Source: Cristatella mucedo (taxonomy: Eukaryota > Bryozoa > Phylactolaemata > Cristatellidae). Taken from it: a stretch of DNA of 64,000 nt. This document shows positions 18,401 to 21,400 of the stretch, in pieces. The notes beneath the pieces were generated by a model, which saw nothing but the letters and a program-made list of their open reading frames with translations, was not told the origin of the DNA and did not search any database. The stretch covers positions 139,001 to 203,000 of the forward strand of contig WPIO01000124.1 in the NCBI GenBank assembly GCA_009760855.2, read 5' to 3'. Position numbers and translations under genes: made by a program. The first letter of the stretch is position 1; each line of letters begins with the position of its first letter.

Positions 18401-21400
18401 CCATTGCTGCACTGAATCTCGTCATCACGGGGGGAAGGCAACAGCTGACTGCACTAAACACGTCATGTACTGGCAAAAAATGCGAGCACTGACTGCTTCC
18501 ATGGTTGACGACAATTTCGGAACAGGTGAACCCTTAAATGTTATCAAACGGCTACAGTAGAGGGCCCCCCGGCAAGCATTTTTCCAGGATGGGCATGAGT
18601 GTACCACCTGCCAGCACACGCGTAGGTTGAGGGTCAGGGTGGCCCGGCAAAGTAAAGAAACCCGTGCATGCGCGCGCACACACACACACACACACACACA
18701 CACACACACACACACACACACACACACACACACACACACACGCAAGCATGCATGCATGCACGTGTCAGCACAACGCAAGGCACCGAGGAGGAAGATCTGC
18801 CCGTCAAGCATACCTGCCATAATGCGATCATTAGCACCGAGCCGTGTGAATATTCGATCTACGGCAGTGAACTTGCACGTCTCTGCAGGCACCAGGCACC
18901 CCTACAGCGTTTTGGCACGACGGTCTGAGGCTAAAAAGCAGGCCAAAGGTTATGTAAACAAGCCAAGCAGCATGACATGGACAAGACCAGCTACTTTGGA
19001 GTGAGTGAGTGAGTTGCTCCAAAAAAGCACCGAGAAAGGCAAACGGTTGCAAGCGAAGGGAAGCAGATAGTCAGCAGAGGGCTCCTCCTCGATGCGAGCT
19101 CGACAGGAGAGCCAAGATGGTCGTGCAGAGCAGACCCTGCGTCACGGAGCGCTGTCTCCGCTGCGGCACGACCGATTGGAGGACGACGTCTGATGCTGCT
19201 GCTGCTCGAACCACTCACCATCTGAGCCATGACGACTAGGAGGCCTGCCTGCCTCATCAGTGTCGATTTGCCACCCATGTTGGGTCCCGTTATGAGAACG
19301 AGCTCTGCATCGGTTCTCTGGCGACCAGTTTGCACCTGTAGCGGCAGCAGTGGAATGGTGCGATGCATTTGCAAGCCATTCCATCGTAACAACAAATTTG
19401 ATGCACAAGTGACCGGGCGAGCATGATGCCACCTTGGGCATGGCACCAGTAGGCGAAATGGCAAAGGCCTTCGGGTGCAAGAAAAAAATATTCATTAGTA
19501 TAGCGCCCCAAGAGAACTTAAGGGGGAATGTCAACAAAATACCTATACAATTTGTCCGACAATCAAATACTTGTTTATGGTACCTTTCGAAAGACAAATA
19601 TATTAAAACTGAGATCAGAAGTTCTGACGACTTCCACGTGAAAGAAAAATCGTTTATGCCAACCACGTCTAACCCGGATGCAAGGAGGAAGCAAACAAAA
19701 CTACAAATAAAAAATGTACCGATCTCTGCATCATATGCGACTTGTATCCCAACTTGTCGAACCTTGGTAGATCGCTATAGATGCTTGAAGCTTGTTGGTG
19801 CATACTTGAGACTTTCATACAGCTTTATTGCCAGGGTGGGTCGGTGCCTTGTAAATTAAATAACTCAACTGATATTTCATGTATCTGAATGAAATTTGAA
19901 ATGGGAGTTTAGCTCTGCCTTCCCCCACTAGTTTTTAATATTTTTGATTTCGGTTCGACACATTTGGCTGTCATCAATCTCCCGGAGCTTTATTTTCCGT
20001 AATCGTGGACATATAGAACCAATTGTATCAAACCGAAATCAAAAATATTAAAAACTAGGGTAAAAAAGCAGAGCTGAACTCACATTTCAAATTTCACGCC
20101 GATACGCGAAATATTAGTTATTTAATTTACAAGGCACCAACCAACCCTGGAAATGAAGCTGTATACAAGTCACAAGTATGTACCTCAACAAGCTTCAAGC
20201 ATCTATAGCGATCTACCAACGTTCGACAAGTTGTGATACAAGTCACATATGATGCAGAGATAGATACATCTTTTATTTGAAGATTTGTTGATTCTGGTTT
20301 ACATCCGGGTTAGGCGTAGTTTGCATAACACATTTTTCCTTTCACTAGGAAGTCGTCAGAACTTCCGATCCCAGTTCTAACATATTTGTCTTTCGAAAGG
20401 TACCATAAACACACATTCGATTGTCGGACAAATGTTGTAGATATTGTCTTGATTTTTCACCTTAATCTCTATTCAGGCGCTTCACATTTGGAATGGGGCT
20501 CGAGCCCACGACCTCAGCTAGGCATTGGTCGTGGGGGGGGGAAAGCACCTTAACTGCTGGATCAAACCAGCTCGGCAGAAATAAGATAAAACACACCAAT
20601 AATAGGCCAGGGCGGTTCTGGCCTCTCAGTATCTAGCGAGTGAATCACACAGCCGAGCCCTAATGATGCAGCATGGATCCGTGGATTCCATATTGGCTGG
20701 GCTACCAAAAGAGGCCACTAAGCCACTGCAGCTGGTGATGAATTGGTCTGCAAGGCTAGTTTAGAAATCCCAGAGGTTTGACCACGTGTCTCCTTTGCTA
20801 AAAGAGCTTGGGCGGTGCCAGTTGATCACAGATACAGAATAAAGTTCTTCCGCTGACCCATAAAGCCTGCCACAGCTTGGCACCTTCACACTCAGCTGAA
20901 GTGCTGCACCAGTTTCAGCCTCCTTGTGCCCTCAGTTCGTCTATGGACAATAAATTAGCTGTCCCATTCCTCTGCTTAAAGACATCGGGCAACAGAAGCG
21001 ATTGCTCTGCAGGTTCTAGACTGTGGAACTAACTTCCACAATTCTTATGCAACGATATCTATTCTCCTGCCGTCGACTATGGCACATCACTTCGAGCTGT
21101 CCTGAGCTGCTACTTTCATGCCATTCACTATCTCAACTGTTCTCCCGATTCAGCTATCCTTTTCAATTTGTCTTTGTTGTGTGAGATGAAGTCTGTTGAC
21201 TACCAAATGCGTACCGAAAGCCGCTTAGGCTTTGAGTGTGCTATACACAACTCTCCTGCATAACGCCCACATATAATAATAATGCACTTGATAAAGCGCC
21301 CTCAAAGAAATCTCTTTCTAGGCGCTTTACACATAGTCTTGGTGGAGTTATGGAAAGAGATACAAACATCCAGCTGAAGATGCACGAGTCATCACGTATG

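Follow-up and report, generated by a model that had tools for sequence, protein, structure and literature searches.

A 64,000-nucleotide stretch of the Cristatella mucedo genome (assembly GCA_009760855.2, contig WPIO01000124.1, positions 139,001 to 203,000 of the forward strand; hereafter the window) contains two long inverted arms bounded by TTAA, which raises the question of what kind of element this is and what becomes of such a structure once it has been inserted. Self-alignment, as proposed in a sequence-only reading of the window, places the foldback at window positions 19518-20465, with arms of about 460 bp that align in inverted orientation around a centre of 23-51 nt; that reading had recognized the inverted arms and short loop, which both self-alignment and folding bear out, but had put the arms slightly short, at about 450 bases. 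The TTAA claimed for both flanks is present, the first target copy at 19518-19521 and the second at 20462-20465. Between them lie the left arm (19522-19982, plus strand; first letters GGGGGAATGTCAA), the loop (19983-20005, or 19968-20018 when the arms are aligned without gaps), and the right arm with which the left one pairs (20006-20461, minus strand; last letters TTTTTCACC, compared with ATTCCCCC in the family consensus described below). Arm-to-arm identity in this copy (locus L001) is 85.4% over 444 aligned positions, and aligning the entire foldback to its reverse complement gives a match at 82%. Folded as single-stranded DNA, the window copy reaches -329.5 kcal/mol, a value attained by 0 of 20 shuffles (mean, -89.9 kcal/mol; sd, 5.4). 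Long inverted arms thus occupy most of the element, as in the foldback structural class. No Rfam family matches the window at gathering score. Among other features of the window, the open frames at 18991-19491 (minus strand) and 51739-52314 (plus strand) are presumably, from their appearance by eye, an MSH6 ATPase exon and an IFT70/TTC30 exon, respectively, and those at 28549-29103 (plus strand) and 57375-57878 (minus strand) resemble by eye the end of a reverse transcriptase of the non-LTR retrotransposon type. Elsewhere in the host assembly, COX1 lies on contig C688 and contains 11 in-frame TGA codons, in keeping with a mitochondrial code in which TGA specifies Trp.

The insertion splits a SINE on the plus strand, whose two portions align to the left (19490-19521) and right (20462-20576) of the element. 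When the flanks are joined with one TTAA, they align across the joint to SINE copies at 42906-42984 (minus strand), 43949-44030 (minus strand), 44529-44618, and 62324-62372 in the window and to other genomic loci. The site is single in all nine SINE copies aligned, reading TTAA in seven and TGAA and TTAC in the other two; the empty site of the window insertion is therefore real, and the duplicated target is TTAA only. This agrees with the original interpretation of a split SINE with one TTAA at its empty site. Of the two intact SINE copies cited for it, both are empty at the site, but only the one at 42.9 kb reads TTAA, the one at 43.9 kb having TGAA in its place. A second two-ended insertion, at locus L108, occupies the same SINE TTAA in the opposite relative orientation. 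A pattern search for the SINE site returned nine matches, with SINE sequence on both sides only in the window copy and L108 and on the left only in L106, too few to test the origin of the half copies discussed below. Locus L024, which looks by eye like another insertion into a SINE tail, has no SINE match on its left and was not used as evidence. The copy at L035 was inserted in a different repeat, an unoccupied copy of which is present at L032 and reads TATAA. At L104 (1712-1848, reverse complement) the relationship is reversed, a SINE having inserted within a family copy; since the window copy lies conversely within a SINE, the activity of the two families overlapped.

To look for other copies, as had been suggested, we searched the 572-Mb host assembly. 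A search with the element, in which 40 of 2,923 candidates were scored, gave 86 match rows; owing to the palindromic structure, most copies were matched twice, once in each orientation. A 33-nt pattern for the TTAAGGGGGAA ends of the family, with 31 bases specified, occurs 472 times with up to three mismatches, 232 times in forward and 240 times in reverse orientation, whereas the reversed control pattern occurs 0 times. From 25 full-length copies (20 loci from the element search and 5 from the end pattern; full copies found later are not included) we derived a consensus of 961 bp including both TTAAs, with a loop of about 36 nt at about consensus positions 464-499. Both ends read TTAA-GGGGGAA, giving the termini GGGGG..CCCCC; of the two ends initially reported, GGGGG agrees with the consensus, and the GGTG of the window copy departs from it. 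The 25 copies differ from the consensus by 6.1-11.3%, figures slightly inflated by 14 flanking bases on each side in the alignment. Between the two arms of the consensus, identity is 96.1% over 461 positions, and their 18 aligned differences make it probable that slight divergence of the arms preceded the spread of the family. As the longest stop-to-stop stretch in the consensus is 93 aa, the element looks non-coding. Older relatives also occur: the window contains a fragment of a related arm without ends (39898-40286; 76-77% identity to the consensus), and at L021 (895-1465) and L032 (6-464) more diverged pieces (67-79% identity) adjoin family copies and suggest sister subfamilies. Four end strings were searched for in the literature without an occurrence being found.

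Exact TTAA was observed at 56 of the 86 ends of 43 two-ended copies (a tally that omits L025 and L080), compared with 3 of 86 ends when a control stretch of the same width, 20 bp further out, is examined. Both ends carry it in 22 copies, one end in 12, and neither in 9, some of the misses being ends misplaced by the script, such as one end of L069. Two results had been named in advance as fatal to the sequence-only reading, namely, other copies lacking TTAA flanks and arms that turn out to be separate insertions, and the tally is the opposite of the first. As for the second, one-armed copies are indeed common, and the foldback might be explained by a one-armed element that inserted twice, independently and in opposite orientations. 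However, 25 full copies elsewhere share a two-armed consensus with the same loop and the same 18 differences between arms, so that we regard this explanation as virtually impossible. The element is a foldback DNA transposon that is non-autonomous, is present in many copies, and duplicates TTAA. With 472 ends, a 25-copy consensus, and TTAA flanks, the suggestion of an undescribed family of this type is upheld as far as literature searches go, a scope that does not take in Repbase and Dfam; within it, this is a new family of a known kind.

We then considered which transposase could have moved the element. Termini of the piggyBac type begin with CC, and the element starts with GGGGG. TTAA is also used by Sola3. 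According to one account, Kolobok elements duplicate TTAA and have ends of the form RR..YY, unlike piggyBac (PMC9587614); the foldback has both the 4-bp TTAA duplication and 5'-RR / YY-3' termini (GGGGG..CCCCC), and Kolobok therefore fits better than piggyBac. Similarly, the T2-MITE of Xenopus, with TTAA and AGGRR ends, is presumed to be Kolobok (PMC6004289). Searches of the genome for the THAP domain (PF05485) and the piggyBac domain (PF13843, DDE_Tnp_1_7) tied no autonomous partner to the element's ends, a check that the sequence-only reading had recommended. THAP, which along with H2CH characterizes the DDE transposase of Kolobok, has six matches genome-wide, and the 3-kb loci around them contain no match to the element; the piggyBac domain has a single match, a fragment with four stops. 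The hint of a piggyBac connection thus holds up poorly. Non-autonomous piggyBac elements share the TTAA target duplication with the foldback, but the terminal bases, which separate Kolobok from piggyBac according to PMC9587614, and the lone stop-ridden domain match both speak against derivation from piggyBac, which we consider improbable. The transposon is most likely of Kolobok type, an assignment that stays unproven and draws on TTAA and the terminal bases.

Many copies have lost one end. One such half copy, which like the old fragment at 39898-40286 is absent from the sequence-only account of the foldback, lies in the window itself (30606-31118), where alignment shows a TTAAGGGGG end, one arm, the loop, and about 16 nt of the other arm, followed by unrelated DNA. 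Behind the best 100 of the 472 end matches (those with fewest mismatches) we classed 89 copies, of which 42 are two-ended, 41 are one-ended, and 6 could not be read; 69 of them (28 two-ended and 41 one-ended) were aligned to the consensus, with two-ended defined as a match reaching consensus position 943 or more, and a further 14 two-ended copies were classed by paired end matches or the element search. The breakpoints of the 41 one-ended copies are clustered: 33 fall at 434-591, 17 at 499-541, and 15 at 505-530, compared with even expectations of 7.0, 1.9, and 1.2, respectively, for intervals that were chosen after the data had been seen. The peak thus lies past the loop, in the second arm and about 5-30 bp from its beginning. 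In eight of the 41 copies, however, the break is at 434-485, in the loop or ahead of it, which a stop that occurs only after the loop does not explain. Two-ended copies bear a similar mark, as 12 of them contain 13 internal deletions of 40 bp or more, and in 9 of the 13 one retained piece ends at 499-541 when counted from its own end. At L037 the junction is filled, by eye, with repeated pieces from both of its sides, resembling error-prone end joining. A long run of AT dinucleotides fills an internal-deletion junction at L048 (1550-1627).

Exact TTAA is found at the aligned start of the single end in 22 of the 41 half copies, and two (L043 and L089) are flanked by direct target duplications. 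The duplication at L043 is 49 bp with three mismatches; that at L089, which lies inside another repeat, is about 26 bp by eye and 15-17 bp by BLAST overlap, below the threshold of the duplication scan, and emerged when flanks were compared. These longer duplications are not accounted for by simple deletion at a later time. They are compatible with half copies made at insertion, by a folded single strand that is joined to the target through one TTAA end, opened just past the loop, and repaired into the target, although in both cases the joined end has a changed or unrecognisable TTAA. The single-end TTAAs and the 15 of 41 breakpoints located 5-30 nt past the loop would also be expected. Nevertheless, duplications were found in only 2 of 41 half copies, and the internal deletions show that the same breakpoint arises in copies retaining both ends, for which no one-ended insertion is needed. 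In addition, the half copies at L036 and L098 each start within an older member of the family, and by eye this host copy is not resumed on the right, which fits loss of flanking DNA. We therefore judge it unlikely that half copies in general were made at insertion. For the remaining half copies, no unoccupied site was found among the loci compared, so later deletion and truncated insertion are both possible.

Hairpins are hard to sequence, and half copies could also be errors of assembly at hairpins; consistent with this, 1 of 72 loci (L081) contains 109 N, making its break doubtful. However, the other 71 loci are without N, breakpoints vary among copies, and the duplication at L043 has itself diverged, as its 3 mismatches in 49 indicate. 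Moreover, about 6 kb of sequence past four half copies contains no matching far end in three of the four. Taken together, these observations make assembly error a poor explanation, and we assign it little probability. In the fourth locus, L059, a half copy of 76% identity lies 1.2 kb beyond one of 88% and is oriented like a far end. The two could be the ends of a single 2.2-kb element and provide the best lead for a longer form of the family; because their identities are unequal, we read them as probably two separate copies, the diverged one being older. Locus L059 also holds a weak inverted repeat of a different kind at about 907-1512, and the diverged half copy itself occupies 1849-2351, both features lying past the 88% half copy. 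The DNA past 15 one-armed or shortened copies has no interior common to the set and shows only scattered pairwise matches.

A second sign of interaction between the arms comes from derived bases. At positions where the consensus arms agree, 66 derived bases are common to both arms of one copy over the 25 copies, whereas pairing left arms with the right arms of other copies gives a mean of 22.3 (sd, 4.4) and a maximum of 39 in 5,000 derangements. L009 (9 shared changes; arm identity, 0.953) and L013 (8 shared changes; 0.928) stand out. On average, though, arms are scarcely more alike within copies (mean identity, 0.882) than between them (0.875; sd, 0.014). Of the 66 shared changes, no more than 14 are confined to a single copy, and subfamily history may therefore explain part of the sharing, though probably not all of it. 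For copies such as L009, copying from arm to arm within the element would be the simplest reading.

Overall, the explanation that we favor, and regard as likely, is a non-autonomous, near-palindromic cut-and-paste transposon, inserted at TTAA, probably of Kolobok type, and decaying by way of a hairpin. The GGGGGAA ends would be recognized by a transposase acting in trans, TTAA-specific and most likely of Kolobok type, whose gene lies elsewhere and which would insert the element and duplicate TTAA; the empty sites display the product of this step. The near-palindrome could then fold into a hairpin or cruciform. Such a hairpin probably formed in vivo and drove both arm loss and arm-to-arm copying: one arm would serve as template for the other, accounting for the excess of shared derived changes, and the breakpoint cluster would reflect strands that broke, or whose synthesis aborted, within a few bases after the loop, leaving internally shortened copies and one-armed half copies. 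Two routes to such an end are conceivable. A new strand that has copied one arm, the loop, and the very beginning of the second arm might fold back on itself, so that synthesis aborts, or the hairpin might be nicked beside the loop; each predicts the observed cluster, and the context could be aborted gap repair after excision or replication across the hairpin. In yeast, attack by the Mre11 complex is confined to loops of <9 nt (PMC8053094), and the family's loop of about 36 nt thus mildly favors aborted synthesis over this nuclease.

More tentatively, the element may move or decay as a single-stranded hairpin, with half copies arising from one-ended integration or from snap-back synthesis just past the loop; we think this possible but doubtful. 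Were it true, the family would be a genome-wide natural record of germ-line hairpin formation, readable base by base through breakpoint position and arm-to-arm copying. As a further TTAA-specific foldback family, it is ordinary in kind; its decay pattern is the interesting part, and the breakpoint cluster together with arm sharing is the surprising one. Studies on the fate of inverted repeats usually rely on engineered constructs in yeast and bacteria. The many aged copies described here amount to a natural experiment in the germ line of a eukaryote, with inverted repeats of about 460 bp, showing which side of the loop is broken and with what frequency an arm is lost or overwritten by its partner.

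Several known systems resemble the family in part. Instability of palindromes with asymmetric central deletion is a known process rather than a family. It resembles our copies in that an inverted repeat breaks close to its centre, but here the breaks occur in inherited transposon copies, and the loop is about 36 nt as against the <9 nt given in PMC8053094 for attack by the Mre11 complex in yeast. The Drosophila foldback-type elements Galileo and Tetris also have very long inverted arms, and Tetris resembles the present family in having non-coding copies and an autonomous partner that has not been found (PMC4168063 and PMC4079207). The same sources assign Galileo to the P superfamily, its long foldback-like repeats notwithstanding, and suggest a Mutator-type origin for Tetris; foldback shape alone therefore names no superfamily. 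Tetris duplicates 8-10 bp (PMC4079207), and the C. mucedo element duplicates TTAA rather than the long target of Mutator-type foldbacks. Compared with Kolobok and its presumed non-autonomous member T2-MITE, the element has ends that start with G rather than A, an inverted repeat that fills its whole length, and no Kolobok transposase tied to it. It nonetheless has the TTAA duplication and purine-purine ends of Kolobok and Xenopus T2-MITE (PMC9587614 and PMC6004289), and the AGGRR ends of T2-MITE resemble the GGGGG found here.
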